Below, piece by piece: positions 7,816-25,088 of a stretch of DNA of 42,921 bases (position 1 is the first letter of the stretch; every line of letters starts with the position of its first letter). The notes under the pieces are model-generated. The model made no database searches and was not told the DNA's origin. It was given only the letters and a program-made list of their open reading frames with translations. The DNA is from Phycisphaerales bacterium (GTDB lineage: Bacteria; Planctomycetota; Phycisphaerae; Phycisphaerales; UBA1924), in assembly GCA_016764895.1 (NCBI GenBank), contig JAESRA010000052.1, positions 1 to 42,921 on the forward strand. Direction: 5' to 3'. A program made the position numbers and the translations under genes.

Positions 7816-7838
7816 AACCCCTTCACGATTTGATCAAT

Positions 7839-8646: not shown

Positions 8647-8686
8647 CCATTATCTGCGATCGAACTTCACTAAAACGCCCGATTCT

Positions 8687-8798: not shown

Positions 8799-8871
8799 AT
8801 GCAAAAAAGCAGTAGATCCTTCTCTCATCGCAAGCAGCCCAAAGACGGGCCAGACAGGCGAGGAGATCTAC

Positions 8872-10311: not shown

Positions 10312-10395
10312 ATCTGAAACAGTCCTTTCGTTCGACTCTGTGGCTGCATCTTGAGGTGTGGCACAAAGGTCGGTTGGACATAGACGCTGCGTATG

Positions 10396-11013
10396 CTATT
10401 TGTGTTTGCTATGCGTATGCCGTCTCATTTTTTCAAGCATCATCAAAAAGTTCATCGCCGGATCGGTGAACTGTGTTTCATGGAGGGTGTTCCAGTGGTC
10501 TCGGAGGTAGGCGGTGATGAACTTGCTGATATGATCGAGTGTGATGACCTGAACGCCAGGCCCTGGGCTATGCTCAACATAGGAGGCAAAGACGAGCATA
10601 CGGACATGGTGGTCGTTGGGTGTGATCGCATGCCCGGTGTCGAGGAGGTGTTCGACAACCTCTTGGGTGTGTTGGTGTGGACACGAGCCGAATCTCGCCA
10701 GTGCGGTGCGCATCACCGAAGGGTCGTGGGCACCGCGATTGAGCCGAGCAACGCCTTGTTTGACCTCGCCGATGATGAGATCAACATGGTCATCGCTGGC
10801 GCCGAGTTCAGGATCAACCTTGCCGATCATGGCGCCGCCTCGTCCTTGAGGAACAAGGCGTCCGGCTCCAGGAAATCGAACCGCCAGAATATCAATGTCT
10901 GTTATTGAACGCACCTGCCCGCGCCCAATGAGTTCGACGATCGGATAATCTGTGACGACAAAATAGCCATTGATTTTCAAGTAGCTCTCAACAAGGGCAA
11001 CAGCACTGTCCAT
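10396..11013 (-). CDS. PD-(D/E)XK nuclease-like conserved protein
   Basis: From the chosen ATG it has 205 residues, with GGAG 6 bp upstream. The start lies 14 bp after the MarC stop on the same strand, so the two form an operon. VESYLKINGYFVVTDYPI, DIDILAVRFPG and DLIIGEVKQG are conserved-looking blocks. The Asp...Glu-x-Lys spacing is that of the PD-(D/E)XK nuclease fold, though the partner protein or DNA target is unknown. The short basic, His-rich end MRRHTHSKHK is unusual. The function is not established; the nuclease fold is inferred only from the motif. Confidence 0.6.
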   Translation of the reverse strand: MDSAVALVESYLKINGYFVVTDYPIVELIGRGQVRSITDIDILAVRFPGAGRLVPQGRGGAMIGKVDPELGASDDHVDLIIGEVKQGVARLNRGAHDPSVMRTALARFGSCPHQHTQEVVEHLLDTGHAITPNDHHVRMLVFASYVEHSPGPGVQVITLDHISKFITAYLRDHWNTLHETQFTDPAMNFLMMLEKMRRHTHSKHK

Positions 11014-11027
11014 AGAAAACTCCGATG

Positions 11028-11684
11028 CTAATTCGATGGCGTAGTAAATGTGTTTGGACTGATGTGTATATTCGTTGAAGACATGAAACCACTGAACCCG
11101 GCCAAGAGAAACTGAGCACCCATCGCCACAAGAATCAGCCCCATGAACCGGGTAATTAGGCGGAGGGATCGACCGCCGAGCCGGTTGGTGATCTGGGATG
11201 CCAGCAAAAGACTGATACCCAGGACGACGACGGTGATCACTACTGCCCCCAATGCAATAACGATCCCATTCCACCCATGTGGGAGAGTTGAGAGCGTGAT
11301 CGCGGTGGCGATGGATCCCGGTCCGGCGACAAGGGGCATGGCAAAGGGCACCAGAATCTGGTCCTCTTGATCGGCTTCATGCTCTGATTCATCGTGGACC
11401 GTCGATATCTTGCCGCGCAGCATTTCTAATCCCATCAACACGATAACGAGCCCACCACCGAATCGGAAGGCGTCGAGCCCAATACCGAAGATTTGAAGAA
11501 TGAAGGTGCCCACCAGCACCGCCCCGCCCAAGATAACCAATACCGCCACACACGCGACCAGTACCGAGTGTCGGCGCTGTGACTTTGACATGCCCTCGGT
11601 GATCGCTGCAAACAGAGGCGTGGCCGCGATCGGATTGGCGATCGCCAGCATCGCGACAATGGCATGGATGAAGTGCTGAAACAA
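11028..11684 (-). CDS. MarC family integral membrane protein
   Basis: A 218-residue protein with six predicted membrane segments. Its N-terminus FIHAIVAMLAIANPIAATPLF and the VPFAMPLVAGPGSIATAI block are characteristic of MarC/UPF0056. Molecular function is unknown for the family; E. coli MarC is not required for multiple-antibiotic resistance. The start is TTG 11684, with GGAG 7 bp upstream, which matches where family members begin. An in-frame ATG at 11711 lacks such support. It is co-directional with the nuclease-like gene downstream and the P-type ATPase upstream (73 bp gap). Confidence 0.88.
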   Translation of the reverse strand: MFQHFIHAIVAMLAIANPIAATPLFAAITEGMSKSQRRHSVLVACVAVLVILGGAVLVGTFILQIFGIGLDAFRFGGGLVIVLMGLEMLRGKISTVHDESEHEADQEDQILVPFAMPLVAGPGSIATAITLSTLPHGWNGIVIALGAVVITVVVLGISLLLASQITNRLGGRSLRLITRFMGLILVAMGAQFLLAGFSGFMSSTNIHISPNTFTTPSN

Positions 11685-11757
11685 AGTAGTTCTCCGTTGG
11701 CCTACGATCATAGCGTCGATGCCGAAAGCTAAAGCTCTGAATGTTGATCCATTCGAA

Positions 11758-14202
11758 TTATCGAGATTCTGGGAGTATCTGGTCATCCGATGGAACCGGC
11801 AGCAATATCCGGTACGCCCAAACTTTGATATAGTCGTTGAAAATGAACCAGATCGCCGCATAGATCCAGATATAGATGGTCATCTTCCAGCCGATGGATT
11901 CCATAAAAATTCCGAAGCACGCAAAGACACTCCCAATGAGTTGGGTCCCGAACGCAGGTACAAAGAACTTGAGTGATGGTAGAGGCCGCTGCCAGAAATG
12001 TTTTTCCCGTGTCCGAGCGACATAAATCGTCGAATGCCCCGCAACGCTGAGCTTGAGGAAGATCATGGATTGGATCAATGCGTGCTCGAATCCCATCTTC
12101 TGGAGCACAAAGAAAAGGGTAAATGACGCGATGACTCCGGCGATGCCCAGTACGCCGCCGATGGTGAGAACTTCTCGCATATTCCATCGTACCGGTTGCG
12201 GCTCTATGCGGGCGTTGTCATACGCGATGGCCATGATCGGGATGTCGTTGAGCAACGCCAGAATGATAATCATGATCGCGGTGACCGGATAAAAGTTGAA
12301 TACCACGATCGCCAGGGTCATGAACAGGATCACCCGCGTCGTCTCAGCGAGCCGGAAGATGGCGTAGCTCATCATCCGTCCGAAGATCTGGCGGGCCTCG
12401 CGGATCGCCTCGGCGATGACACCCAGTCCCGGAGCCAGCAAGACCAGATCGGCCGCCGCCCGCGCCGCGTCGGTCGCCCCCGAAACCGCGATGCCCGCAT
12501 CGGCCTGACGCAGCGCCGGCGCGTCATTGACCCCGTCGCCGGTCATGCCCACGATGTGCCCGCTGTGCTGGAGCCGCTTGACGATATCAAACTTGTGCTC
12601 CGGGAAGACCTGGGCAAAGCCCGCGGATTTGACGAGAATCTCATCGTTGTTGTCGCTGCTCATCCCATCGGTGAACTCTTCGGCGCTGCGGATATCCTCG
12701 CGTAGACCGACCATTTTGGCGATCTGTTTGGCGATGGCGATGTTGTCGCCGGTAATCATTTTGAGATCAATTCCCAGATGCTGAAGATCTGCGATGGTGC
12801 TCGCCGAATCGTCCCGAGGCGGATCAAAGAGCGGGAGCAAGGCCACGAACCTGAACTTGCTTTCCCCCTCACGCTGAACCATGACACCAAGGGTTCGGTA
12901 GCCCGTTGACGCAAAACGCTGCACTTGATCCTGGATCATCTTTCGATCCGCGTCCGATTCGTCGCACATCGCCAGCAGGGCCTGGGGCGCCCCTTTGGAC
13001 ACCACCATCTGCCCACCACCTTGAAACTCAACCGTCGCCTCGGTTCGTTTGCCAATCGGATCAAACGGTGTGAACGAACGCACCGCGTATCGACCCAGTA
13101 ATTCACGAAGCCCGAGTTGATCGAGGGCCTCGAAGATTGGAAGTTCCAGCGGGTCTGAGTCCTCTTGCCGACTCGCAAGTGCGGCGTAGAGAACGGCGTC
13201 TTGTTCGGAAACCCCACCGAAGCACGCGACCGTTCCCAGTGTCATCTCGTTCTTGGTCAGTGTGCCCGTTTTGTCACAACAGAGCACATCGACCCCGGCG
13301 AGTTCCTCAATCGACACAAGCCGGCTGACAACCGCCTGATGCTTGGCCAAATGCAATGCACCAACCGCCATCGTCACCGACAACACCGCCGGAAGAGCCA
13401 CCGGAATCGACGCGATTGTCAGCACCAACGAGAACTGGAGGATCTCGAGCATCGGATCATGCCGGATCAACGACACGACCACGATCAGAAAGACCATCGT
13501 CCCCGCCAACACGATCAAAAAATTACCAATCCGAATCACGGCCTTCTGAAAATGGCTGCGTTCTTGGCGCCCGGCTTCGGCCACGAGTGATGCTGTTTTC
13601 CCAAAGTAAGTGCTCGACCCGATAGCGGTCACCAGTGCCTCGGCCTCTCCTTTTCGGACAATCGAGTTGCCATAGATGACATCCCCGGACGCTTTGTTGA
13701 CCGGCAGCGACTCGCCGGTCAAAGCCGACTGATCGATCTGAAGTGTCCCCCCGTCGATCAACTGGGCATCGGCGGGCACCATGTTTCCGAGCCGGAGCCT
13801 TATGAGATCGCCGGGGACCAGTTCGCGAGCGTCGATATCTTCCCATTGCCCGTCGCGGAGCACGAGTGCCTTTTTGGCGAGCTTGGCCTTGATCGCTTTG
13901 AGCGCGCTCAGTGCCTTGGATTCCTGATGAAAGTCGATGAACACATTAAAGCAGAGGAGCACGAGAATAATGCTCATGTCTTCCCACTTCTGCACCACCG
14001 CCGAGAGGATCGCAGCGATCTCGATCATCCACGGGATCGGTCCCCACAAGCGTCGGATTATCCGACGAAATAGCGACTCTTCTCGTTCTTGGATTTCGTT
14101 GTATCCGAACTGGGCACGGAGGGCCTCGACTTCTTGAGATTCCAGCCCGGGTGGGACAGGTGACTCTGTCGTTTGGTCGGTAGACGATTCTATGTTGCCC
14201 AT
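11758..14202 (-). CDS. P-type ATPase, proton-pump (PMA1) type
   Basis: An 814-residue type IIIA-like cation pump in the cytoplasmic membrane. The actuator motif SALTGESLPV, phosphorylation site CDKTGTLTKNE, and hinge MTGDGVNDAPALRQADAGIAV are all present, with about ten membrane segments. Lack of a CPx motif and of N-terminal metal-binding domains argues against heavy-metal transport. H+ export is therefore the best guess, generating proton motive force from ATP. I chose ATG 14202, 6 bp after GGGG, rather than upstream in-frame starts at 14214 or 14304. Its upstream gap contains an operator-like site (14349-14364) shared with the divergent sugar genes. Confidence 0.88.
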   Translation of the reverse strand: MGNIESSTDQTTESPVPPGLESQEVEALRAQFGYNEIQEREESLFRRIIRRLWGPIPWMIEIAAILSAVVQKWEDMSIILVLLCFNVFIDFHQESKALSALKAIKAKLAKKALVLRDGQWEDIDARELVPGDLIRLRLGNMVPADAQLIDGGTLQIDQSALTGESLPVNKASGDVIYGNSIVRKGEAEALVTAIGSSTYFGKTASLVAEAGRQERSHFQKAVIRIGNFLIVLAGTMVFLIVVVSLIRHDPMLEILQFSLVLTIASIPVALPAVLSVTMAVGALHLAKHQAVVSRLVSIEELAGVDVLCCDKTGTLTKNEMTLGTVACFGGVSEQDAVLYAALASRQEDSDPLELPIFEALDQLGLRELLGRYAVRSFTPFDPIGKRTEATVEFQGGGQMVVSKGAPQALLAMCDESDADRKMIQDQVQRFASTGYRTLGVMVQREGESKFRFVALLPLFDPPRDDSASTIADLQHLGIDLKMITGDNIAIAKQIAKMVGLREDIRSAEEFTDGMSSDNNDEILVKSAGFAQVFPEHKFDIVKRLQHSGHIVGMTGDGVNDAPALRQADAGIAVSGATDAARAAADLVLLAPGLGVIAEAIREARQIFGRMMSYAIFRLAETTRVILFMTLAIVVFNFYPVTAIMIIILALLNDIPIMAIAYDNARIEPQPVRWNMREVLTIGGVLGIAGVIASFTLFFVLQKMGFEHALIQSMIFLKLSVAGHSTIYVARTREKHFWQRPLPSLKFFVPAFGTQLIGSVFACFGIFMESIGWKMTIYIWIYAAIWFIFNDYIKVWAYRILLPVPSDDQILPESR

Positions 14203-14517
14203 ATGTAGCCCCATGATCTTTGAATCGCACGACTGCCAAGAACACGGCATTGAACAGCCGCACGATCTTACGACACGATCAGAGTCCGTATTGTATTGTG
14301 GCAAGGATTTGGTATCGCGAGGCGTGCTTTGTTCGTGGCTGCCAACAACAGGGCGGTTTCCCTGCTACCCATGCCGCCGCAACTTGTGATAATAAAGTCG
14401 GAAAAGGAATGCGTGTTCGATCGGGGCGTTGGATAAAGGTTCCGTAGATCGGGTCAGGTGTTTGTGCGTGACCATGCACCAACGAGCCCTGCGTGATTCT
14501 GCTTGAGGTCAATACCA
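14203..14517. promoter_or_regulatory. Divergent control region, ATPase / sugar genes
   Basis: This 315-bp gap has no convincing gene. It holds the CAGGG...CCCTG site at 14349-14364. On the plus strand GATAAT (14388-14393) sits 23 bp after the site. On the minus strand a GATACC hexamer lies 32 bp from it. Both could be -10 elements, so one site may serve both directions. Confidence 0.5.
14349..14364 (+). promoter_or_regulatory. Operator-like palindrome, copy 1
   Basis: CAGGGCGGTTTCCCTG, with perfect 5-bp inverted ends and a 6-bp centre. It is the reverse-complement form of the consensus CAGGGAAACMACCCTG. A -10-like GATAAT follows 23 bp downstream on the plus strand, so the site would be centred near -42 to -43. 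Confidence 0.7.
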
Positions 14518-15624
14518 ATGCAAAGCAATACAACAAAGAATAGCCCCATGGAGCATACAGACGCAACATTTCATGTAGCCCCATCACTTGGGCATCTCAA
14601 GCACATGACCGATCGGGTTGGTTTGGTGCAGCATGCGAGGCTTGGTGAGCCTTTTTATGACGAAGGGTATTCGATCGACGACAATGCGCGGGCATTGACT
14701 CTGATGTGCGATCTATCACAAGAAGAAAATGGAGACCATGCGGATTTAGCAGACTTGGCATCGCGGTACCTTGTTTATGTCACCGATGCTTGGAACCCCG
14801 CGTCCAAACGCTTCCGGAACTTTAAATCCGCCGAGCTCCAATGGCTCGAAGAACAAGGATCAGAAGATTGCCACGGGCGAGCACTCCATGCCCTCGGTCA
14901 CGCGGCCAACTGCACCGCTTGGAACGACATCGCCGCTGATGCTCGCAGCAGCTTTGAAGAAGCTCTGGCATCCACGGCGAGTTTCACCAGCCCGCGGGCG
15001 TGGGCTTTTACCCTGTTTGGGATCGATGAGTACTTGCAAAGCGGAGAAGATCAATGCTGCGCAGCACAGTATCGGAGTCTTCTGGCGCGACGGCTGCTCA
15101 ATCTCTATCAACTCATCGCAACGGATGATTGGCCTTGGCTTGAGGAGGTATTGACCTACTGCAACGCCAAACTCCCGCACGCTCTCTTGCGATCTGGGTA
15201 TGCGATGGGTCGAGACGACATGATCGAAACAGCACTCGGAATGATCACATGGCTCGCCGAGATTCATACGGGCGATACGAGAAACTTTGTGCCCATCGGG
15301 TCCAATGGGTTCTACCCAAAGAACGGCCACCGTGCGGTGTTCGATCAGCAGCCCATCGAAGCCCATGCGATTGTGGCCTCCTCGCTCGATGCGTATCGAC
15401 TGACATCAGATCGATTCTGGTTCGATGAAGCGATTCGGGCATTCCAATGGTTCCTCGGGCACAACCACCTCGGCATTCCCGTCGGGAACCCCGAAACCGG
15501 GGCGTGTTATGACGGGTTGCACCAAGATCGCCCGAACCTGAATCTGGGTGCCGAGTCCACATTGGCCTATCTGCTGAGCTGCGCGGAGATGCGCAATCAC
15601 GCCTCGGCGTGCCGAGCTCGGTGA
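14518..15624 (+). CDS. (Alpha/alpha)6 glycosidase-like protein
   Basis: A 368-residue protein without signal peptide, so probably cytoplasmic. GYSIDDNARAL, SEDCHGRALHALGHA and GFYPKNGHRAVFDQQP resemble the six-hairpin (alpha/alpha)6 domain that elsewhere is fused to GT4 glycosyltransferases or encoded beside GH130 enzymes. Asp and Glu residues in these blocks could be catalytic, but no characterised homologue comes to mind. Start ATG 14518 follows GAGG at 9-bp spacing; ATG 14548 is an alternative. It heads the sugar gene cluster, 54 bp before the first GH130 gene, behind operator copy 1. The substrate is unknown, possibly a mannose-containing glycan given its neighbours. Confidence 0.7.
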   Translation: MQSNTTKNSPMEHTDATFHVAPSLGHLKHMTDRVGLVQHARLGEPFYDEGYSIDDNARALTLMCDLSQEENGDHADLADLASRYLVYVTDAWNPASKRFRNFKSAELQWLEEQGSEDCHGRALHALGHAANCTAWNDIAADARSSFEEALASTASFTSPRAWAFTLFGIDEYLQSGEDQCCAAQYRSLLARRLLNLYQLIATDDWPWLEEVLTYCNAKLPHALLRSGYAMGRDDMIETALGMITWLAEIHTGDTRNFVPIGSNGFYPKNGHRAVFDQQPIEAHAIVASSLDAYRLTSDRFWFDEAIRAFQWFLGHNHLGIPVGNPETGACYDGLHQDRPNLNLGAESTLAYLLSCAEMRNHASACRAR

Positions 15625-15678
15625 CCAAGGATCGCACATAGACAAACTGGGCGATGTTTGCCCAATAGGAGATACATC

Positions 15679-16662
15679 ATGACAGCACGGAACAAGCACC
15701 ACGAGATTCTCTTTGAGCGCCACAGCAATAACCCAATCCTGACCGCCGCCCAATGGCCTTATGCGACCAATAGCGTCTTCAATCCAGCCGCTGTCCGGCT
15801 ACCAAACGGTGAGACTATCCTGCTCTGCCGCGTGGAAGATCGGCGTGGGCTCTCGCATCTGCATGTCGCCCGCTCAACCAACGGCGTCGACGGCTGGGAG
15901 ATCAGCGAGACACCGACATTCATGCCGGATCCGAAAAATCATCCCGATGAACTCTGGGGCGTTGAGGATCCACGAATCACATTCGTCGAGGAACTCGGAA
16001 AGTATGCGGTGGCCTACACCGCCTTCGGGTGGGGCGGGCCCGGTGTTTCCTTGGCATTGACCGAGGACTTTGTTCACTTCGAACGCCTAGGGCTGATCTT
16101 CCCGCCCGATGACAAAGACGCGGCCCTGTTCCCCAGACGGATCGACGGGCGATGGGCGATGATTCATCGCCCGGTCACCAATCAAGGCGCGCACATCTGG
16201 ATTTCATACTCACCCGACCTTCGACACTGGGGAGATCACCGCATCTTGATGGAAGCCCGCCGAGGCGGTTGGTGGGACGCCGGGAAGATTGGGCTCTCTC
16301 CGCCACTCATCGAAACCGAGCGCGGGTGGATCATGATCTACCACGGCGTGCGCACCACGGCCTCGGGAAGCATCTACCGGATTGGTATCGCGCTGTTCGA
16401 TCTTGAGAATCCCGAAAATTGCATACTTCGCGGCGACAAGTGGGTCTTTGGACCATTTGAAAAAGATGAGCGCGAGGGCGATGTGGACAATGTCGTGTTC
16501 CCATGTGGATACACCATCGGGGACGACGGCGACACGATCAATCTGTACTACGGGGCCGCCGATACTTCGATCTGCCTGGCGACCGGAAGCATCCAGCGGA
16601 CACTCGACTGGCTTGATCGTCACGGGCTCCCTGAAAGCCACGCACTCCATACCGGCGAATGA
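15679..16662 (+). CDS. GH130 family glycoside phosphorylase-like protein (1)
   Basis: A 327-residue five-bladed beta-propeller protein of the GH130/DUF377 type. GVEDPRITF carries the Asp expected to be the general acid. IHRPV, IYHGV and YYGAADTSICLA are the usual active-site and blade motifs of the family, which acts on beta-mannosides by phosphorolysis or hydrolysis. Retention of the phosphate-pocket-type His/Arg residues favours a phosphorylase, but the subfamily is undetermined. AGGAGA lies 7 bp before ATG 15679. There is no signal peptide. It shares overall architecture with the second GH130 gene at 18205 and lies between the (alpha/alpha)6 gene and the GT4 gene. Confidence 0.87.
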   Translation: MTARNKHHEILFERHSNNPILTAAQWPYATNSVFNPAAVRLPNGETILLCRVEDRRGLSHLHVARSTNGVDGWEISETPTFMPDPKNHPDELWGVEDPRITFVEELGKYAVAYTAFGWGGPGVSLALTEDFVHFERLGLIFPPDDKDAALFPRRIDGRWAMIHRPVTNQGAHIWISYSPDLRHWGDHRILMEARRGGWWDAGKIGLSPPLIETERGWIMIYHGVRTTASGSIYRIGIALFDLENPENCILRGDKWVFGPFEKDEREGDVDNVVFPCGYTIGDDGDTINLYYGAADTSICLATGSIQRTLDWLDRHGLPESHALHTGE

Positions 16663-16718
16663 ATCCCCTTTCCATCGCCATGCAGAGATGAACAAGGGCT
16701 TTCCCCCAACTCGCCGAA

Positions 16719-16734
16719 CAGGGTGGTTTCCCGA
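16719..16734 (+). promoter_or_regulatory. Operator-like palindrome, copy 2
   Basis: CAGGGTGGTTTCCCGA, one degenerate end compared with the other copies. AATACT (16758-16763) follows 23 bp downstream as a -10 candidate, inside the 12-mer GAATACTGTATT. It provides the GT4 gene with its own promoter within the sugar cluster. Confidence 0.65.
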
Positions 16735-16840
16735 TATACAGGTCTCGGCTGTGTGTGAATACTGTATTTGAAGGGTGCGATGCGAGTTGCATCCGAACGG
16801 ACGCCGGGTGGGCCGTCGCCGTTGGAGACATAGGAAACAA

Positions 16841-16879
16841 CCTGCCAAGTATCGGCATGCTCATGCGATACTTGGCAGG
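16841..16879 (+). promoter_or_regulatory. Strong leader hairpin before the GT4 gene
   Basis: Perfect 14-bp arms (16841-16854 and 16866-16879) surround an 11-nt loop. The 3' arm ends in CAGG and abuts GGAAGGA, the Shine-Dalgarno region of the gene at 16894. The hairpin would lie in the mRNA leader made from the copy-2 promoter and could influence ribosome access or RNA stability. No T-run follows, so it is not a standard terminator. Confidence 0.6.
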
Positions 16880-16893
16880 GGAAGGATGACAAC

Positions 16894-18171
16894 ATGATCG
16901 TGACTGACAAGCGTTTAGCTCGGAAAGAATCACAATGGTTTTTGTCCAACCCATTGCGACCCGCACTTCCGGTCCGGGTTGCTGTGGTGCCAGAGCGTGG
17001 ACTCAAACGGGTGGCCTTCATCGGCAACCACGGGCCCCGCCAGTGTGGGATCGCCACATTCACCTCGCACCTTGTCGATGCGGTTTCAAGCGTTGATCCC
17101 GATCTCAAGGTTTCTGTCACCAGCATGAACGACAGGCCAGAGGGCTATGTCTACCCCGATCGGGTGGATTTCCAGATTGATGACCAAGACCTCGCCTCGT
17201 ACAAATCCGCAGCGGCACACATCAACTGCTCAGGGGCCGATGCGGTGTCGTTGCAGCATGAGTTCGGGATTTTCGGTGGCCCAGCGGGAAGCCATCTCCT
17301 GACCCTGCTCAAACACTTGGACATACCCGTCGTTGCCACCCTGCACACCATCCTCCGCGATCCAAATCACGAACAACAGTATGTGATGGATCAACTGAAC
17401 CTCCTGTGTCAGCGTTTCGTGGTGATGAGCCAGCGGGCCGTCCAACTCCTGGTCGATGTCTACGGCTTTGATCGCAATCGAATCGACATGATCCACCACG
17501 GCATCCCCGACATCCCCTTTGATTCCAAGCAGGACTTCTTGAAATCAAAGGGCGTTGATGATGGCAAGATGCTGATGACCTTCGGATTGCTCGGCCCTGG
17601 AAAAGGAATCGAACACGCAATCAGAGCGATGCCAGAGATCGTCGCATCGCATCCAGATGCGAAGTACATGATCGTAGGAGCGACGCACCCCAATCTCGTA
17701 CAACATGAAGGCGAGCGGTATCGTGAACATTTGATACAGTTGGCCGATGATCTCAATGTCGGTTCAAACATTCTCTTTTACAACCGATTTGTCACGCAGA
17801 AAGAACTTGAAATGTTGCTCATGGCCGCCGATGTGTACATCACGCCATATCCACATATCGAACAGATCTGCTCGGGCACGCTGGCCTACGCCCTCGGATG
17901 TGGCAACGCCGTTGTTTCCACGCCCTATTGGCACGCCCAAGAACTCCTCGCCAGCGGACGCGGCGTGCTTGTCCCTGTCAATGATCCCGCAGGGATCGCA
18001 GGCGCAGTGACGCGCCTCTTAGATGATCCCCAAAGACGCCTGGCAATGCAACGACGCGCCCATGCCTATGGGCGAGAGATGATCTGGAGCGAGGTTGGTG
18101 CCCGGTATCTCGAATCGTTCCGTCGCGCCCGTTCAAGTAGAAGCAACCGGGCTGCTGTGCTGACCGCCTGA
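16894..18171 (+). CDS. GT4 family glycosyltransferase
   Basis: A 425-residue GT-B fold enzyme. The N-terminal domain has FIGNHGPRQCGIATFTSHLV, and SLQHEFGIFGG follows. The sugar-nucleotide-binding domain has FGLLGPGKGIEHAIRAMPEI and PYPHIEQICSGTLAYALGCG, where the E(x7)E-like region lies. Retaining transfer from a nucleotide sugar, possibly GDP-mannose, is expected; the acceptor is unknown. No membrane segment is present. It sits between two GH130 genes, so synthesis and phosphorolysis of one glycan may be encoded together. It has an operator-linked promoter (copy 2) and a leader hairpin. The C-terminus ends in a short basic stretch. Confidence 0.88.
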   Translation: MIVTDKRLARKESQWFLSNPLRPALPVRVAVVPERGLKRVAFIGNHGPRQCGIATFTSHLVDAVSSVDPDLKVSVTSMNDRPEGYVYPDRVDFQIDDQDLASYKSAAAHINCSGADAVSLQHEFGIFGGPAGSHLLTLLKHLDIPVVATLHTILRDPNHEQQYVMDQLNLLCQRFVVMSQRAVQLLVDVYGFDRNRIDMIHHGIPDIPFDSKQDFLKSKGVDDGKMLMTFGLLGPGKGIEHAIRAMPEIVASHPDAKYMIVGATHPNLVQHEGERYREHLIQLADDLNVGSNILFYNRFVTQKELEMLLMAADVYITPYPHIEQICSGTLAYALGCGNAVVSTPYWHAQELLASGRGVLVPVNDPAGIAGAVTRLLDDPQRRLAMQRRAHAYGREMIWSEVGARYLESFRRARSSRSNRAAVLTA

Positions 18172-18204
18172 ATCTGATCTGTCAACCCCAAAGGGCACCT
18201 ACCG

Positions 18205-19119
18205 ATGCGTGACATCTTCCATCGTTCGTCCATGAACCCAATCATCACCCACGACGATCTCCCACTCCACGCCGCGGCGGTCTACAACCCGGGCGCCACC
18301 ATGCAGAACGGAGAGACGGTTCTTCTGCTGCGTGTGGAGGACGATGCCGGTTTTTCGAGCATCCACGCCGCCCGAAGCACTGACGGCGTCACCGATTGGC
18401 GGACCGATCCTGCCCCCATTCTCAAGCATAATGAAGACTCTTGGCGGTATGAACAATGGGGGTGCGAAGATGCGCGGGTGATCTACGATCAGGGGGATAA
18501 ACGCTGGTACATTACCTACACCGCCTATTCACCCGCTGGGCCGGCCATCGGTCTGGCGTGGTCGGATGATCTGATCGCCGCCGAGCGCATCTGTCTCTTT
18601 CCATCACCATCTGATAAGGACGGCGCACTCTTTCCGACCAAGATCGGCGATCGCTGGGTACTCCTCCACCGCCCTGAGTCGGGCGGTCATCAGGATATCT
18701 GGTCGGCATCCTCGACCGATCTGGTTCACTGGGGAAAGCCGCACTGTGTGCTCACGCAGTCTTCTGGCCCTGCATGGGATGCCGTGAAAGTTGGTGTCGG
18801 TCCGCCCCCAATCCTCACTGAACGCGGATGGCTGATCATCTATCACGGCGTCAAACAATATGGGAGTGACTTGGTGTACCGCGCTGGCGTTGCGTTGCTT
18901 GATCTTGACACACCAAACAAGGTGATCGCACGATCAAAGCGATGGATTTTTCAGGCCGAGGCCCCGTATGAGGTCTCCGGGCTCATGCCCAATGTCGTGT
19001 TCCCCACCGGGGCGGTCTTGCGAGGTGACGAGTTGTGGATGTATTACGGCGCCGCCGACACCTGCGTGTGCCTGGCCATTGCTCGGATGGACGACATTCT
19101 GGCCGAACTCACCGACTGA
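18205..19119 (+). CDS. GH130 family glycoside phosphorylase-like protein (2)
   Basis: A 304-residue paralogue of the GH130 protein at 15679. WGCEDARVIYD carries the catalytic Asp region, and LLHRPES, IYHGVKQYG and YYGAADTCVCLAIAR match the family blades. It is shorter at both ends than copy 1, and divergent enough that the pair may act on different linkages or chain lengths. It starts 33 bp after the GT4 stop with a modest AAAGGG Shine-Dalgarno, so it is probably cotranscribed with it. No secretion signal is seen, pointing to an intracellular glycan. Confidence 0.86.
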   Translation: MRDIFHRSSMNPIITHDDLPLHAAAVYNPGATMQNGETVLLLRVEDDAGFSSIHAARSTDGVTDWRTDPAPILKHNEDSWRYEQWGCEDARVIYDQGDKRWYITYTAYSPAGPAIGLAWSDDLIAAERICLFPSPSDKDGALFPTKIGDRWVLLHRPESGGHQDIWSASSTDLVHWGKPHCVLTQSSGPAWDAVKVGVGPPPILTERGWLIIYHGVKQYGSDLVYRAGVALLDLDTPNKVIARSKRWIFQAEAPYEVSGLMPNVVFPTGAVLRGDELWMYYGAADTCVCLAIARMDDILAELTD

Positions 19120-19206
19120 ATCCCAGTCCGCCCAACCACTGCGCCTACAACACCTACAACCGGCACGCCGACAACAGAGCCACTCGGCACAACCTAGATC
19201 ACCGAC

Positions 19207-19650
19207 CTAAATAACCGACCGAGACAACAAGTGGACGATCGAGGCGTGGTGCTCAAGATCTCCCACGCTCAGCCCAGTCAACTCCCCATGAAAGTCGCTC
19301 ACCAAAATCGCAAACTTGGGTGACCACGAATCACGGAGCACCCCAAGAAACTTCGGCGGCGCAAAGACCGCCAAACGATCAATAGACAACTCGTCGGCGA
19401 GTTGTTCCACCCACACGCCGATCTCTTTGGCGAACCGTTTCCGCTGCATCTCGTCCTCATGCCCCCACGATGCGTTCGTGTGCCCGTCTTTCTCGCCCAG
19501 CGGTGACGGGCGAGTGTGCTGGCGTGGTTCCCAGGTGTTTGTAAGCCGGTCGCGCTCAGTCACATGGGGATGACCCGAAGCCGTGCGATCAATACAGACC
19601 AACCGTCCGCCTCTCTCGTCACATAAAAGTGCCCAATGTTGAGTTGTCAT
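19207..19650 (-). CDS. Host attachment family protein (PF10116-like)
   Basis: A 147-residue soluble protein. LLCDERGGRLVCID, DEMQRKRFAKEIGVWVEQL and LAVFAPPKFLGVLRD are the familiar blocks of the family named for Agrobacterium attachment proteins, which has a release-factor-like (baeRF) fold. The real cellular role is uncertain, and these genes often sit with stress functions. ATG 19650 follows GAGG at 6-bp spacing; the GTG at 19662 is a weaker alternative. Operator copy 3 lies 122 bp upstream, with GATACT on the minus strand at the 23-bp spacing, so this gene probably belongs to the same regulon. Confidence 0.85.
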   Translation of the reverse strand: MTTQHWALLCDERGGRLVCIDRTASGHPHVTERDRLTNTWEPRQHTRPSPLGEKDGHTNASWGHEDEMQRKRFAKEIGVWVEQLADELSIDRLAVFAPPKFLGVLRDSWSPKFAILVSDFHGELTGLSVGDLEHHASIVHLLSRSVI

Positions 19651-19771
19651 ATCGAACCTCACAGGCCTCGAAGAAACACAAAGCGACCCAATAGAACCGA
19701 CGAATCCCGCGGAGAGTCGCCAGAATCAGCGGAACCATGATTAGTATCGCCCTTTGGGGCCTCTATAGCAA

Positions 19772-19787
19772 CAGGGATACAACCCTG
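19772..19787 (-). promoter_or_regulatory. Operator-like palindrome, copy 3
   Basis: CAGGGATACAACCCTG on the plus strand. Read on the minus strand, GATACT (19748-19743) lies 23 bp further on, fitting a promoter for the attachment-family gene. On the plus strand it sits 104 bp before the kinase start and may give autoregulation; a further half site CAGGG lies at 19818-19822. Confidence 0.65.
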
Positions 19788-19856
19788 TTTGTGTGGATGG
19801 ATTGTGGATTGGTCAAACAGGGTAGAAGTTTGCGTATACAATTCGTCAAGAATACC

Positions 19857-19879
19857 CGGCGAGGAATGACAACTCGCCG
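19857..19879 (+). other. Leader hairpin with a six-codon open frame
   Basis: CGGCGAG (19857-19863) pairs with CTCGCCG (19873-19879). The loop holds ATG 19866, which opens a 6-residue frame (MTTRRD) ending 5 bp before the kinase GTG start. GGCGAGGA in front of this ATG is a good ribosome site, whereas the kinase start has a poor one, so coupled translation is possible. Confidence 0.4.
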
Positions 19880-19890
19880 AGATTGAGTAG

Positions 19891-21795
19891 GTGCATTTGC
19901 ATTTGGGTTCTTCTCAGCCTGACCGTTCGCCCAAGCCCGGCGGGCCAACCCGAGCGGGTTCTCCCGTTGAAGGTGTCGCTGCCGGCTCAGCACCTGAGGC
20001 ATCCGCCGACCAATACGCCACGCTCTTGCGACAAATGGTCGAGAACCTCTCATCCGGGGCGGTGTTCATCGAGGGCGATCAACTCTATATGAACGCGGCC
20101 GCCGAAGAGCTCACCGGATACCGAGGCGATGAGTTGTCGACCGTTGACGAGTGGTTTTCGGTGCTCTTTGGAAACCGGCGCGAGGAAGTCCGCAGGAAAT
20201 ATGAATCGCATCGCCAGCGTGGATTTGACACGCGATCAACAACGCTCATCGTGCGCAAAGATGGCCAAGAACGCCGGGTTGAGTTCACCGGCTCTCGCTG
20301 GAATACTCATGAAATCTGGCTCCTTCATGACGAAACCGAGTTGGCCCAAGCCGCTCGGGCACTCAAGGAGAGCGAACTTCGCCTTCAAGCCATCTTAGAT
20401 ACCGCCGTCGAAGGGATCATCACGGCCGACCACAGTGGTCTTGTGATCTCGTTTAATCGGGCCGCGGCCCATATCTTTGGGTACACGCCCGATGAAATCC
20501 TCGGCCAAAATATCAGCATGCTGATGCCACCCTCCTACCGTCAGAAGCACACCGATTATATTGAACAGTATCTCAAAGCACGCCAGTCCAAGATCATTGG
20601 CGTAGGGATGGAAATCGTTGCCCAACGAAAGGACGGCACAACCTTTCCAATCGAACTGGCCATCAGTGAGATCGACCACCTGCATATTTTCACCGGCGTC
20701 CTGCGCGACATCAGCGACCGCAAGGAAATCGAAGCGCGTCTAATGCAGGGCCATCGCCTCAGCGCCATCGGCACACTCGCCGCTGGGTTGGGGCACGACA
20801 TGAACAACATCCTGCTCCCTGTGCGGGCCAGGCTGGACCTGATCGATCACGCGGGGCTCCCTGATGCAGTCCAAGAACACTTCGTCGAGATCCGCAAGTC
20901 GACCAAGTATCTCCAGGATCTGGCCGACGGGCTTCATCTGCTGGTCATGGATTCGGGAGATTCGGGGGTATCAGAAGAGTTGACATCGCTCAATGACTGG
21001 TGGGAGCAGGTGCATTCACTCCTCGGGCGAGCACTCCCCAAAGAGGTGCTCTTCACGGCGTCAATCCCATCCGATCTCCCGGAGATCCGGGTCGCGCCCC
21101 ACCAACTGACCCAGGCGGTGCTCAACATGCTGGTGAACTCGGGCAAAGCGGTCGGCGCTGATGGTCGCGTTGAGCTCTGGGCCGATGTTGATGAGGACAA
21201 CCAGTGTGTTCGGCTCGGTGTCACCGACAATGGGAGCGGGATGAGCGATGAGGTCAGGCATCGGGCGATCGAGCCATTCTTTACAACCCAGTCTCGTGGG
21301 CTGGGCACCGGGCTGGGCTTGTCACTCGTCCATCGCGTAGTCCAAGCCAGCGGGGGGACGATTGAAATCCAGTCAGAAGTAGGAAAGGGGACAACCATTA
21401 TTCTCAAGTTCCCCGAAGCCCCCCAGCAATCCATCAACGAGTCATCCCAAGGCACCGGGCGCCCGCCGCTCGCGATCATCTCGGTACAAGACCCTCGCAC
21501 CGGCTCGATTGCTGAGAGTCTTCTCTCGATCATCGGGTTTGATGTAGAACCCGCCAACGCCGATGCCGACGCAACCGACCACGCTGCTCTCTGGATCATT
21601 GATGCCTCAGTTCAAGCCCAGCCCCAAAACCTAGATCGGGTTCGTCAGTGCCTTACCGAGGGGTGCCGGGTGATTGTGCTCGGAGCGCTGCCGCCTGAGT
21701 GGGAGTCACTGGATGTCCAGGTCGTCGAAAATCCCAATGACTTTTTCAAACTGCGAGCGGCCATCGAGTTGGCCGCTGATGAGGTATCCCAATGA
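19891..21795 (+). CDS. FixL-like PAS sensor histidine kinase, degenerate receiver tail
   Basis: A 634-residue protein with no membrane segment, so cytoplasmic. PAS-1 spans about 43-155 and PAS-2 about 165-285. HisKA follows with His302 in AAGLGHDMNNIL, then HATPase_c (about 400-515) with DNGSGMSDEV and GLGTGLGLSLV. The tail (about 525-634) resembles a degenerate receiver. PAS-2 closely follows FixL: MPPSYRQKHTDY has His220 where FixL has its haem-binding His200. Exactly 20 residues on, FixL Arg220 is replaced by Met240. Oxygen or redox sensing is therefore plausible but needs haem to be shown. Start GTG 19891 is the best available. It overlaps the response regulator (ATGA). Confidence 0.85.
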   Translation: MHLHLGSSQPDRSPKPGGPTRAGSPVEGVAAGSAPEASADQYATLLRQMVENLSSGAVFIEGDQLYMNAAAEELTGYRGDELSTVDEWFSVLFGNRREEVRRKYESHRQRGFDTRSTTLIVRKDGQERRVEFTGSRWNTHEIWLLHDETELAQAARALKESELRLQAILDTAVEGIITADHSGLVISFNRAAAHIFGYTPDEILGQNISMLMPPSYRQKHTDYIEQYLKARQSKIIGVGMEIVAQRKDGTTFPIELAISEIDHLHIFTGVLRDISDRKEIEARLMQGHRLSAIGTLAAGLGHDMNNILLPVRARLDLIDHAGLPDAVQEHFVEIRKSTKYLQDLADGLHLLVMDSGDSGVSEELTSLNDWWEQVHSLLGRALPKEVLFTASIPSDLPEIRVAPHQLTQAVLNMLVNSGKAVGADGRVELWADVDEDNQCVRLGVTDNGSGMSDEVRHRAIEPFFTTQSRGLGTGLGLSLVHRVVQASGGTIEIQSEVGKGTTIILKFPEAPQQSINESSQGTGRPPLAIISVQDPRTGSIAESLLSIIGFDVEPANADADATDHAALWIIDASVQAQPQNLDRVRQCLTEGCRVIVLGALPPEWESLDVQVVENPNDFFKLRAAIELAADEVSQ

Positions 21796-22457
21796 CCAAC
21801 CTTCCGATCCGTGTATTGTGCGTTGAAGACCATGCGTTTCTTGTCGATGGGCTCCGCGCCCGATTCGAGATCGAGACGGATATCAAATGCGTCGGACACC
21901 TCGAATCGGCGGATGGATTGATCGCAACAGCTGTGGAGCTCCGTCCCGACATTGTGCTGATGGATATCGAGATGCCCGGGCCCGATCCGTTCGAGGCCGT
22001 CGAGGATCTCATGCGGATGGTCCCCAGCAGCCGCGTCGTTTTTTTGAGTGCCTATATCCGTGACCATTACATCAGCGCCGCCGTCAACGCCGGGGCGTTC
22101 GGGTATTTCTCAAAGAGCGACGAGACCGATGAGATCATCGAGGGCATCCGCACGGTCGCCCGGCGCGGGGTATTCGTGCTGAGCCCAAAGGTCAAAGCCC
22201 GCTGCACACCAACCAAGGGCCTCAAGCGGGGACAGATCGAGCCGCTGACCACCAAGCTCGATTCACTGACTCCGCGCGAGCACGAGGTCCTCCGAATGAT
22301 CGGGCGGGGCATGACACGCACCGAGATCGCCAAGACCCTCTGCCGGAGTGTCAAGACCATCGACGGGCACCGCGAAAAAATCATGGACAAACTCGACATC
22401 CATGACCGGGGCGAACTCGTCCGCTTTACGATCCGCGAGGGTCTGGCCGAGGCGTAA
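21792..22457 (+). CDS. NarL/FixJ-type response regulator
   Basis: A 221-residue two-domain regulator. The receiver has acidic EDH near residue 12, phosphoacceptor Asp58 in VLMDIEMPG, and a conserved Ser/Thr and Lys (FLSAY, FSKSDE). The C-terminal LuxR-type helix-turn-helix (about 160-218) includes LTPREHEVLRMIGRGMTRTEI and VKTIDGHREKIMDKL. It overlaps the sensor kinase by ATGA, so they form a cognate pair. NarL-type dimers bind short inverted repeats near -42, which makes this the leading candidate for reading the CAGGGAAACMACCCTG sites found around it. That link is inference. Confidence 0.92.
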   Translation: MTNLPIRVLCVEDHAFLVDGLRARFEIETDIKCVGHLESADGLIATAVELRPDIVLMDIEMPGPDPFEAVEDLMRMVPSSRVVFLSAYIRDHYISAAVNAGAFGYFSKSDETDEIIEGIRTVARRGVFVLSPKVKARCTPTKGLKRGQIEPLTTKLDSLTPREHEVLRMIGRGMTRTEIAKTLCRSVKTIDGHREKIMDKLDIHDRGELVRFTIREGLAEA

Positions 22458-22499
22458 GCACCGCATCGGATTGGCTCTGGAACACAATGATCTAAGAAA

Positions 22500-22515
22500 C
22501 AGGGAAACAACCCTG
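22500..22515 (+). promoter_or_regulatory. Operator-like palindrome, copy 4
   Basis: CAGGGAAACAACCCTG, the best match to consensus. TACTCT (22539-22544) follows 23 bp downstream as a -10 candidate for PEP synthase; TACAAT at 22552-22557 is a second possibility. The site lies 43 bp after the response regulator stop. Confidence 0.7.
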
Positions 22516-22573
22516 TGTCGTACGAATCATCGTGCCGGTACTCTTAAGCAGTACAATACCGGAGGCCCAAGCC

Positions 22574-25021
22574 ATGACCATACAGACCAGCAGGTTCATC
22601 GTCCCCCTCGAACAACTCACCCTTCAAGACCTCCCACGCGTTGGTGGCAAGAACGCCTCGCTCGGAGAGATGATCCGGGGTCTTCATGCAAGCGGTGTCC
22701 AAGTGCCCGGCGGCTTTGCCATCACCACCGATGCCTACAGAAAACACCTGGCACAGAACAACCTCACCGACGAAATCCAAGCACACATCGACCGCTTGGA
22801 TGTCAACGATACCAAAGAACTCGCCCGTGTCGGGCGTGATATCCGGTACTGGATTCAAGATGCCCCGCTCCCAACTGATGTTCGCGATGAAGTCATGAAG
22901 GCCTACAAGGCAATGTCCCAGGCCGATGGCGAGTACGGAATTCATGTTGCCGTCCGTTCGAGCGCCACGGCCGAAGACCTCCCCAGCGCCTCGTTTGCCG
23001 GTCAACAGGACACCTATCTCTTCATCCAAGGCGAGGTGAATCTTGATGTCGCCGTCCGCGCCTGCATGGCCTCGCTCTACACCGATCGAGCGATCGTCTA
23101 CCGCCAACAACACGACATCCCCAATCAGGACGTCGCGCTCTCTGTGGGTGTCCAGCGAATGGTTCGAAGCGATCTCGCCTCGGCGGGTGTGATGTTCACG
23201 CTCGATACCGAGAGCGGGTTTCGGGATGTTGTGGAAATCTCCGGCTCATGGGGTCTGGGCGAGTTGCTCGTCCAGGGTCGCGTGAATCCCGATGAGTTCT
23301 GGGTCCACAAGCCAACAGCCAAGAACGGGCATCGCTCGGTGATCCGTAAAGAACTTGGAAATAAAAAGGTCAAACTCGTGCACGATGAGGGCGGAACAAA
23401 GCCAACGAGGCAACTCCATGTTTCCAAAGCTGACCAAAGACGATTCACCCTCACCGATGACGAAGCCCTCCAACTCGCCCAGTGGGCAATGGCCATCGAA
23501 GACCACTACTCAGCGGTCGCCAAGAAACCCACGCCGATGGACATCGAATGGGCCAAAGACGGCATCACTGGCGAGTTGTTCATCGTACAAGCCCGACCAG
23601 AAACGGTCCATTCACAAGAACGCGAGTTGATCGAGGTGTACCGCGTCAAGGAACACCGCCCCGCCATCCTGACGGGAAAGAGCGTCGGCAACAGCATCGC
23701 GTCCGGGCCTGTCCGTGTCATCCACAACAGCACCCACATGGACAAATTCCAAGATGGTGAAGTCCTTGTCGCTGCGATGACCGATCCGGATTGGAATCCG
23801 ATTCTCAAACGGGCCGTCGCCGTCGTCACCGATCGCGGCGGGCGGACATGCCACGCCGCCATCGTTGCCCGCGAACTCGGGATCCCGTGCGTCGTGGGCA
23901 CCAAAGACGCCACGGGCAAGCTCCATTCTGGGCAGGAAGTGACGGTTTCGTGCGCTGAAGGTGAGGTTGGCAAGGTCTACGATGGCACGATCGACTTTGA
24001 ACGAGAAGAAATTGATCCCACAACCCTGCCAGAATCTCCTGTGCCGTTGATGCTCAATATCGCCTCGCCGGACATGGCGTTTCATCACGCCCTGCTTCCC
24101 AGCGCCGGCGTGGGGCTCATGCGGATCGAGTTCCTGATCACCGATTCGGTCGGCATCCATCCGATGGCTCTGGTGCATCCTGAGCGCGTCGAGGATCGGC
24201 ATCAGCGCAAAGAAATCCGCGAACGGACGGCTGCGTATGAATCGCCTTCAGAGTTCTTTATTGATCGGCTTTCCTCTGGTGTGGCTCAGATCGCCGCCGC
24301 ATTCTACCCAAGGCCCGTGATTGTCCGTTTCTCCGACTTCAAGACCAACGAATACGCCGGGCTCCTCGGTGGCCAGGCCTTTGAACCCACCGAGGCCAAC
24401 CCGATGCTCGGTTTCCGCGGCGCATCACGGTACTACGACGACCGATACCGCGAAGGGTTCGCCCTCGAATGCGCCGCCATCTCTCGCGTGCGCAAGACGA
24501 TGGGGCTGACCAATGTGAAGGTGATGATTCCGTTCTGTCGAACAATTCAAGAGGGCAAAGATGTACTCGCCGAGATGGAACGCAACGGGCTTGAGCGTGG
24601 CAAAGATGGGCTGCAAGTCTATGTGATGTGTGAGATTCCCAACAATGTCATCCAGGCCGAGGAGTTCAGCGAACTCTTCGATGGGTTCTCGATCGGCTCC
24701 AACGACCTCACACAGCTGACCCTGGGCATTGATCGCGATTCGGCCATGCTCTCGCATCTGTTTGACGAGCGCGATCCGGGGGTCAAGCGGATGATCTCGA
24801 TGGTCGTCGAAACGGCACATCGCTGCGGGCGTCCCGTGGGCATCTGCGGCCAAGCCCCCAGCGACCACCCAGACTTTGCCGAGTTCCTCGTCGAGATCGG
24901 CATCGATTCGATCTCCCTGAATCCTGATTCATTGTTGGAGGTGACACGCCGGCTCGGAAAGAAATCAGCAGCGTATGAATCGAAGCCGTCGGTCTCCGAA
25001 GGTCATCTTCTGGGTGGTTGA
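22574..25021 (+). CDS. ppsA: Phosphoenolpyruvate synthase
   Basis: Converts pyruvate, ATP and water to PEP, AMP and phosphate; 815 residues, usual for PpsA. The N-terminal ATP-grasp domain opens with VGGKNASLGEMI and has AVRSSATAEDLPSASFAGQQDT. The swivelling domain carries the catalytic His427 in GGRTCHAAIVARELGIP. The C-terminal PEP/pyruvate barrel includes MCEIPNNVIQAEEF and SIGSNDLTQLTLGIDRD and ends near GICGQAPSDHP. ATG 22574 follows GGAGG at 8 bp. It is preceded by operator copy 4 and followed by a terminator. With the divergent lactate-type dehydrogenase nearby, it places the pyruvate node under this locus's control. Confidence 0.95.
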   Translation: MTIQTSRFIVPLEQLTLQDLPRVGGKNASLGEMIRGLHASGVQVPGGFAITTDAYRKHLAQNNLTDEIQAHIDRLDVNDTKELARVGRDIRYWIQDAPLPTDVRDEVMKAYKAMSQADGEYGIHVAVRSSATAEDLPSASFAGQQDTYLFIQGEVNLDVAVRACMASLYTDRAIVYRQQHDIPNQDVALSVGVQRMVRSDLASAGVMFTLDTESGFRDVVEISGSWGLGELLVQGRVNPDEFWVHKPTAKNGHRSVIRKELGNKKVKLVHDEGGTKPTRQLHVSKADQRRFTLTDDEALQLAQWAMAIEDHYSAVAKKPTPMDIEWAKDGITGELFIVQARPETVHSQERELIEVYRVKEHRPAILTGKSVGNSIASGPVRVIHNSTHMDKFQDGEVLVAAMTDPDWNPILKRAVAVVTDRGGRTCHAAIVARELGIPCVVGTKDATGKLHSGQEVTVSCAEGEVGKVYDGTIDFEREEIDPTTLPESPVPLMLNIASPDMAFHHALLPSAGVGLMRIEFLITDSVGIHPMALVHPERVEDRHQRKEIRERTAAYESPSEFFIDRLSSGVAQIAAAFYPRPVIVRFSDFKTNEYAGLLGGQAFEPTEANPMLGFRGASRYYDDRYREGFALECAAISRVRKTMGLTNVKVMIPFCRTIQEGKDVLAEMERNGLERGKDGLQVYVMCEIPNNVIQAEEFSELFDGFSIGSNDLTQLTLGIDRDSAMLSHLFDERDPGVKRMISMVVETAHRCGRPVGICGQAPSDHPDFAEFLVEIGIDSISLNPDSLLEVTRRLGKKSAAYESKPSVSEGHLLGG

Positions 25022-25064
25022 ATCCTCCCGATACTGAGTAAACCGACGCTGAGTAGATCGTGAG

Positions 25065-25088
25065 CACCCACACCACACGGGTGTTTTT
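25065..25088 (+). terminator. Intrinsic terminator after ppsA
   Basis: CACCC (25065-25069) pairs with GGGTG (25079-25083) around a 9-nt loop, followed by TTTTT (25084-25088). It ends ppsA transcription just before the convergent dehydrogenase gene. Confidence 0.75.

Follow-up and report, generated by a model that had tools for sequence, protein, structure and literature searches.

A widespread GT4-AA6/GH130 gene module, in split form on a genomic island of a Phycisphaerales bacterium, as a candidate for making and recycling a beta-1,2-mannose-containing glycan

Why would a bacterium keep side by side the genes for enzymes expected to make a mannose-containing glycan and for enzymes expected to break it down? 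The question is raised by a cassette of four genes in contig JAESRA010000052.1 of the Phycisphaerales bacterium assembly GCA_016764895.1, of which we analyzed a stretch of 42,921 nucleotides, here called the window. In order, the genes encode a protein with an (alpha/alpha)6 barrel (AA6), a GH130 protein (GHA), a GT4-like glycosyltransferase and a second GH130 protein (GHB) (Table 1). A preliminary description, made from the sequence, had read them as an intracellular pathway in which one mannose-containing product is both made and phosphorolysed, which would save ATP and could be a means of storage or protection. As described below, the cassette is the split form of a widespread GT4-AA6/GH130 module. 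This module is genuine, conserved, mobile and linked to mannose rather than a one-off. With a probability of roughly 0.45, it acts in the cytoplasm, making and recycling a beta-1,2-mannose-containing glycan through mannose-1-phosphate as the central intermediate.

The four open reading frames (ORFs) lie on one strand with gaps of 54, 231 and 33 nucleotides between them, and ORFs, Pfam matches and predicted fold all agree with the earlier placement of (alpha/alpha)6, GH130, GT4 and GH130 genes at 14518-19119. GHA and GHB belong to GH130 (PF04041 at 181.6 and 182.1 bits against a cut-off of 26); they are 41.8% identical and are the only two GH130 proteins found in the host genome (2.61 Mb, 84% complete). 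The GT4-like protein matches Glycos_transf_1 (PF00534, E 7.2e-17) and Glyco_transf_4 (PF13439, E 3.2e-09). Signal peptides had been reported absent, and a crude hydropathy scan for missed export signals, with no signal-peptide program, likewise showed neither export signals nor membrane segments. Within the first 65 residues, the highest mean of any 15-residue stretch was 0.26-0.87 in the four proteins compared with 1.36 in the MarC control, and the highest 19-residue mean overall was 0.71-1.29 compared with 2.94 in this membrane protein. A scan for sigma-70-like promoters in 14280-19950 found none and was uninformative. A phage-defence role was considered and dropped, as AA6 and GT4 have no PADLOC match (the GH130 proteins were outside that scan).

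The cassette is not a chance grouping, because many other genomes have the same set of genes. Of 60 other genomes related to the host, 8 have a close homologue of the GT4-like protein (E <1e-90), and none of the 8 is among the 20 of the same genus; its open frame in the eight genomes measures 765-851 amino acids, the extra length being an AA6 domain. These eight relatives were combined with 80 named genome loci (the best 80 of 555, found through GT4), whose titles include Verrucomicrobia, Acidobacteria, Deltaproteobacteria, Spirochaetes, Phycisphaerae and others. AA6 directly follows GT4 in all 88 loci. The two form one ORF in 79 of the 88 according to an ORF filter and are adjacent and collinear in the other nine, two of which (L018 and L021) nevertheless show single open frames of 827 and 831 amino acids. 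A GH130 gene lies within 6 kb of GT4-AA6 in 83 of the 88 loci, on the opposite strand in L079, L088 and L091; the five loci without one nearby are L017, L018, L020 and L046, which are at contig ends, and L099. When all neighbours were sorted into families, GT4-AA6 recurred in 79/88 loci and GH130 in 75/88, while the next family reached 10. This last family, of 265 amino acids, looks transglutaminase-like by eye. The association is also seen in a 294-genome sample of the phylum, where GH130 is present in 24 of 26 genomes with AA6 vs 49 of 268 without it (Fisher p 2.5e-14, kinship not corrected); the phylum samples were drawn, and many of the genomes are incomplete metagenome-assembled genomes (MAGs).

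The GH130 partner comes in two forms. A longer protein of about 487 amino acids (some cut by contig ends) matches best in all but one of the 83 loci; the exception is L015, from the host's family, with a short GH130 69% identical to GHA. Short proteins of the GHA form (56-71%) also stand beside GT4-AA6 or within about 4 kb of it in L103, L104, L135, L136, L137, L138 and L142, all from the host's phylum, and, where the contig breaks off, next to AA6 in L139 and L144. The split is also seen outside the window: L118 has an equivalent pair, a stand-alone AA6 followed by a protein 64% identical to GHA, and in genome G172, for which no GH130 is listed, GT4 is followed by neighbouring AA6 frames of 354-355 amino acids. 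A tandem duplication of GT4-AA6-GH130 followed by complementary loss would explain the window order AA6-GHA-GT4-GHB. The nearest relatives of GHB (61% and 56-57%) are not beside GT4-AA6, and GHB may therefore be a separate recruit, contrary to the duplication. In trees with weak support, the window GT4 falls near L138 and L015 and the window AA6 near L138.

The module is also carried by plasmids, and these give independent support for a mannose-1-phosphate cycle, since genes for mannose-phosphate or guanosine diphosphate-mannose (GDP-mannose) metabolism stand beside it there. The GT4-AA6 gene or a part of it was found in 28 of 72,556 plasmid records (E 1e-60), and 13 regions from 12 of the 28 records were picked for variety, with five near-identical Sphingobium/Sphingomonas plasmids counting once. 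GH130 is beside GT4 in 12 of the 13 regions (annotated in ten, in pieces in L178 and labelled hypothetical in L181); the exception is L183, where GT4 is followed by a transposon and no AA6 or GH130 could be found. The mannose genes adjoin the module in 5 of the 13 regions: mannose-6-phosphate isomerase in L173, L174, L177 and L178, mannose-1-phosphate guanylyltransferase in L173 and L176, and phosphomannomutase in L173. Sphingobium amiense pSAMIE_2 carries, in this order, genes for GroES, GroEL, guanylyltransferase, isomerase, GT4-AA6, GH130 and phosphomannomutase. In two further regions, L172 and L180, an AGE-family epimerase gene follows GH130. Ilyobacter polytropus pILYOP02 (L182, 2518-8244), with GT4, short GH130, long GH130 and GT4-AA6 in that order, has the layout nearest to the two-GH130 cassette of the window among the cultured bacteria compared. 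Stress-type genes near the plasmid modules are those for Hsp20, DnaK/GrpE, GroES/EL and cytochrome bd. Individual plasmids deserve mention. The protein labelled hypothetical at 9325-10296 of the Deinococcus sp. KNUC1210 plasmid region (L181) is a GH130 protein, 64% identical to GHA and close behind GT4-AA6. Sphingomonas sanxanigenens pNXO2, typed as conjugative, carries the module (L176, 1193-13127) between Hsp20 genes, a tyrosine recombinase gene and GrpE/DnaK, and a second copy (L175) adjoining acetate kinase and pentose-phosphate genes.

The residues of the two GH130 proteins point to phosphorolysis. The catalytic Asp (D97 in GHA and D89 in GHB, preceded by E96 and E88, respectively) and the Asn and Asp of the -1 subsite (N35 and D295 in GHA, N28 and D285 in GHB) are kept; such residues are common to GH130 phosphorylases and hydrolases (PMC4599007; see also PMC4264767). 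In the hydrolases, Glu is described as replacing basic phosphate-binding residues (PMC4599007). Compared with hydrolases by this description, GHA keeps R164, K203, H222 and Y233 and GHB keeps R156, K195, H214 and Y225, with no Glu among them. We take these positions to be the phosphate contacts; the first Arg position of the phosphate side varies (R153 in GHA, T145 in GHB). Lys199 of BT3780 is described as the mark of beta-1,2 specificity (PMC4599007), and its equivalents are K146 in GHA and K138 in GHB, matched through the N/D-K-D/G motif before LF.. in the Teth514 and Lin0857 structures, that is by motif rather than by superposition. Among relatives of at least 50% identity, all 14 of the GHA type and both of the GHB type have this Lys, as do 82 of 82 scorable long GH130 proteins (84 at 40% or more, two not scorable), counts that exclude relatives below 50% (16 of 30 for GHA and 8 of 10 for GHB) or below 40% (1 of 85 for the long form). 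The best NCBIfam matches of both proteins are beta-1,2-mannobiose phosphorylase models, NF050092 and NF052550. Because the catalytic Asp, the beta-1,2 Lys and the basic phosphate-side residues are kept, GHA and GHB are likely beta-1,2-mannoside phosphorylases. The phosphorolysis of beta-mannosides put forward in the preliminary description is thus supported, with the residues pointing to beta-1,2 bonds, and so is mannose as the sugar, for which the plasmid genes above speak as well.

The structure model of the GT4-like protein (predicted local distance difference test, pLDDT, 84.7) has a GT-B fold, with Z scores of 36.2 to sucrose-phosphate synthase, 34.8 to MshA and 34.1 to PimA with GDP-mannose. 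By sequence its nearest solved relatives are the GDP-mannose enzymes PimB' and PimA, followed by MshA and sucrose-phosphate synthase. Canonical GT4 enzymes that use nucleoside diphosphate sugars carry EX7E and GRxxxxKG as donor-site signature. The window protein has the GT4 domain match and the fold but lacks both EX7E and the Arg of GRxxxxKG, and we therefore call it GT4-like. The second Glu of EX7E is Y332 in the PimA alignment; the first is Q324 by spacing, at a one-residue gap in that alignment, and the homologues have no conserved Glu near Q324. The Arg corresponds to L232 in the MshA alignment and to G231 in the PimA alignment. Q324, Y332, G231 and L232 are identical in 95 of 95 homologues plus the window, while His151 and Lys237 of the donor site are kept, and the five columns checked in the plasmid homologues agree in 12 of 12 intact proteins and also in the fragments of the broken-up thirteenth protein (L178). 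Second GT4-like genes near the GH130 or module loci L103 (10597-11787), L104, L107, L112, L131, L136 and L137 also depart from EX7E, with E, Q or G in the first place and R, H or D in the second. An SG..A motif at this site is common to them, which may point to a wider set of GT4-like enzymes with altered donor sites.

AA6, the constant companion of GT4, has an AlphaFold2 model with pLDDT 93.1 and an (alpha/alpha)6 fold, closest to 7tem (Z 39.4), cellobiose 2-epimerases (about 32) and GH76 (28.5). The matches to AGE/cellobiose 2-epimerase and GH76 span the whole domain, at 7-15% identity among the matches listed. No known family could be assigned: Pfam (listed up to E 5) and NCBIfam gave no match, and by sequence the only match in the PDB was 7tem (E 3.5e-05 alone, 6.8e-14 by profile), apart from GH76 at 0.14. 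Open-licence literature on 7tem/YPO2471 yielded only unrelated papers among the matches listed. Many acids and aromatics are invariant or near-invariant (D44, D45, E106, D107, E199, D266, E271, E336, W195 and W197), and AA6 therefore looks like a protein with a live active site. AGE/cellobiose 2-epimerases have a catalytic His pair, with catalytic His in the C-terminal half. In AA6, His is invariant or near-invariant at 16, 29 and 109 only and nowhere from 199 on, which speaks against epimerase chemistry; the protein shares the fold of that family, but neither its profile nor the His pair, as read without superposition. The adjacent Asp residues of GH76 have possible counterparts in the acidic pairs D44-D45 and E106-D107, also read without superposition.

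From the observed gene content, conservation, residues, folds and island we infer the reactions, their direction, the product and its role. General host enzymes would convert fructose-6-phosphate via mannose-6-phosphate and mannose-1-phosphate to GDP-mannose, and the host genome encodes elsewhere a guanylyltransferase-like protein (247.7 bits, under the cut-off of the two-domain model) as well as PMM/PGM-type and PMI-like proteins. The GT4-like protein together with AA6, mostly one polypeptide elsewhere and two here, would start or build the glycan. GHA and GHB would release mannose-1-phosphate from the chain ends, perhaps with different preferences for chain length, and being reversible they may lengthen chains as well. 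This glycan is probably also the substrate of AA6, acting as a hydrolase, transferase or epimerase. As cargo of a genomic island, the module may help the cell to survive when oxygen is low or energy is short, and a storage or protective role of the glycan is plausible.

Several observations weigh against this reading. For the GH130 proteins, the scores of GHA (206 and 189) and GHB (205 and 206) against NF050092 and NF052550 are far under the equivalog cut-offs of 550 and 450, and the activity is therefore predicted here without assigning the proteins to those equivalogs. The nearest solved relative of both by sequence is TM1225, a beta-1,4-mannooligosaccharide phosphorylase; after it come further beta-1,4 enzymes in the case of GHA and the Thermoanaerobacter beta-1,2-mannobiose phosphorylase in that of GHB. 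Among the 16 more distant GHA-type proteins the beta-1,2 Lys is present in 11 and replaced in 5 by Arg, as in beta-1,4 enzymes. One such Arg is in the second GH130 adjoining the module in L103, and Arg also occupies this position in the short GH130 that adjoins the Ilyobacter plasmid module. Mannose-supply genes were seen beside the module only on alphaproteobacterial plasmids, and tblastn with the plasmid mannose proteins found none in the window or in the non-plasmid loci searched (many of them short). The link to stress is one of gene proximity only, which fits a stress role but is no proof of one. For the GT4-like protein, the altered donor site leaves GDP-mannose unsecured as the putative donor. 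Moreover, GT4 enzymes retain configuration, so that an alpha-linked donor gives alpha bonds, and we know of no GH130 enzyme that cuts these. Canonical GT4 chemistry would thus give alpha-mannosides, and the source of the beta bond is not explained by GT4. Therefore, making and breaking requires either a product with two kinds of bond or an unusual GT4 reaction; an alpha core with a beta-1,2 extension, added by GH130 in reverse, is a possible example. Of the earlier reading, an intracellular location, phosphorylase residues and mannose are supported, whereas the idea of a single product made and phosphorolysed at the same bond is not supported as stated, given a retaining GT4 beside a beta-cutting GH130 and a donor signature altered in all homologues compared.

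The module could instead serve salvage alone, with the GH130 pair phosphorolysing imported beta-1,2-mannosides and GT4 merely using the resulting GDP-mannose, which we regard as unlikely. The model for it is Thermoanaerobacter sp. X-514, in which Teth514_1788 and Teth514_1789 are the oligomannan and mannobiose phosphorylases (PMC4264767). Their cluster likewise has two GH130, GT4 and guanylyltransferase genes (PMC4264767), and the catalytic Asp, the beta-1,2 Lys (PMC4599007) and mannose-1-phosphate as product would be shared. However, that cluster also contains GH5 genes and five ABC-transporter genes, with import proposed, and the gene list given there names no (alpha/alpha)6 protein (PMC4264767), while the window GH130 proteins lie well under the equivalog cut-offs. 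No transporter is among the four window genes; an ABC/FtsX/HlyD set lies outside them, about 8 kb beyond the cassette, and none of the 13 plasmid regions has a gene annotated as a sugar transporter, although their gene table is incomplete. That GT4-AA6 is the most constant partner also speaks against salvage, if weakly, because the loci were found through GT4.

Placed just behind salvage, and improbable too, is a role of the module in assembling and trimming a glycolipid, glycoprotein or surface polysaccharide, with GH130 editing beta-mannosyl ends before export. The nearest solved sequence relatives of GT4, PimB', PimA and MshA, use lipid-linked or small acceptors, and some loci have a second GT4-like gene, both of which would suit such a role. 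On the other hand, the crude scan gave no membrane segment in the four proteins, and GT4-AA6 (79/88) and GH130 (75/88) are the only families that recur widely, the next being found in 10 loci. Least probable of all is that the GT4-like protein is a retaining phosphorylase or phosphate-dependent transferase sharing alpha-mannose-1-phosphate with GH130, so that alpha- and beta-mannosides are interconverted without nucleotides: QX7Y for EX7E and the missing diphosphate-side Arg in 95/95 homologues, the window and the plasmid homologues agree with it, and GT4 already includes trehalose phosphorylases (PMC8950772), but the guanylyltransferase genes adjoining GT4-AA6 on plasmids argue for GDP-mannose, and the donor-site Lys and His are kept.

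If, as in our preferred reading, a beta-1,2-mannose-containing glycan is made and recycled in the cytoplasm, two known systems invite comparison. The enzymes of mycobacterial methylmannose polysaccharide likewise combine a GT-B mannosyltransferase (7qsg) and an (alpha/alpha)6 hydrolase, MmpH (7qsj), in one pathway; our GT4 model matches 7qsg at Z 32.1 and our AA6 model matches 7qsj at Z 25.1, both below the best matches. That polysaccharide is an alpha-linked methylated mannan, and we know of no GH130 in its pathway. The other is mannogen of Leishmania, also an intracellular beta-1,2-mannose polymer, a reserve turned over by GT108 transferase-phosphorylases (PMC8950772), which share with GH130, likened by description, the five-bladed propeller fold and the type of mechanism (PMC8950772). 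Leishmania is, however, a eukaryotic parasite, and GT108 a separate family. Among the matches listed from the open-licence literature, the intracellular beta-1,2-mannan reserves are those of Leishmania. A bolder version of our reading would make the module a bacterial counterpart of mannogen, that is a horizontally moved stress module storing intracellular beta-1,2-mannose chains, which are paid out as mannose-1-phosphate, and using a GT-B enzyme with a rebuilt donor site and an (alpha/alpha)6 partner of an unnamed family. We hold this fuller picture to be doubtful.

The cassette is carried by a genomic island (Table 1). In a blastn comparison with a same-genus genome (G005), the alignments cover window positions 3427-6333 (85.6%) and 32375-39992 (80.2%) but not the 26 kb between them, and G005 has about 2.7 kb of other DNA at this site. 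In another genome of the genus (G019) the alignment breaks at 6333, just after the tRNA-Gly gene, and resumes at 32366; since both genomes have other DNA at this site, the tRNA gene could be a hot spot of integration. That the MAG contig is contaminated is unlikely, as G005 matches the DNA on either side of the island in unchanged order. The flanking cystathionine and aminotransferase genes occur in 21 and 18 of 21 genomes of the genus, the phosphoenolpyruvate synthase gene of the island in 1 of 21. An att repeat at the far end was sought and dropped, as the 3' 20 nucleotides of the tRNA-Gly gene occur once in the window (up to 3 mismatches), and none of ten families of direct repeats joins both island ends.

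Table 1 Coordinates in the window of the cassette, the genomic island and neighbouring genes.
Feature	Position	Strand	Basis or remark
AA6, (alpha/alpha)6-barrel protein, 358 amino acids	14548..15624	+	predicted model; homologous to C-terminal half of fused GT4-AA6
GHA, GH130, predicted beta-1,2-mannoside phosphorylase	15679..16662	+	PF04041 2.5e-53, conserved residues, synteny
GT4-like GT-B glycosyltransferase, 425 amino acids, QX7Y for EX7E	16894..18171	+	Pfam, alignments, model
GHB, second GH130, predicted beta-1,2-mannoside phosphorylase	18205..19119	+	PF04041 1.7e-53, conserved residues
Genomic island with the cassette, about 26 kb	6334..32374		directly after tRNA-Gly (6260-6331); blastn breaks
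Integrase-like ORF	6946-7815		PF00589; start of insert
Plasma-membrane-type proton-efflux P-type ATPase, divergent neighbour	11758..14304	-	TIGR01647 922.2 bits, cut-off 615.5
baeRF family 12 / Host_attach protein, small	19207-19662	-	between cassette and kinase
PAS sensor kinase and LuxR-type response regulator, downstream of cassette	19891..22457	+	partial AtoS, FixL matches
Phosphoenolpyruvate synthase, island cargo	22574..25021	+	NF005057, TIGR01418 above cut-off

The PAS-PAS kinase behind the cassette reaches 197.3 bits with the AtoS model (cut-off 646) and, in part, 165.5 bits with the FixL model (cut-off 850); as both are under the cut-off, oxygen sensing is a guess. Regulator or kinase homologues were also noted near the module or GH130 loci L019, L081, L132, L135 and L146. 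Further cargo of the island includes MarC, a 2-hydroxyacid dehydrogenase, an M50-CBS protease and the ABC/FtsX/HlyD set.

The roles described for GH130 are catabolic or salvage, concerning plant mannan, N-glycans, yeast mannan and beta-1,2-oligomannan (PMC4599007, PMC4264767, PMC8950772, PMC11131427, PMC10461819), and no description of the GT4-AA6-GH130 module was found among the matches listed in the open-licence PMC literature searched. Cultured carriers of the module, namely Sphingobium amiense, Geothrix fermentans, Chthoniobacter flavus and Devosia neptuniae, make the question testable, and two further concrete questions of enzymology are raised by the changed donor site of GT4 and by AA6 as a family without a name. 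A conserved module in which GH130 is tied to a GT4-like/AA6 protein and, in cultured bacteria, to mannose-phosphate and GDP-mannose genes would mean, if the preferred reading is true, that an unrecognised mannose glycan is made by many bacteria.

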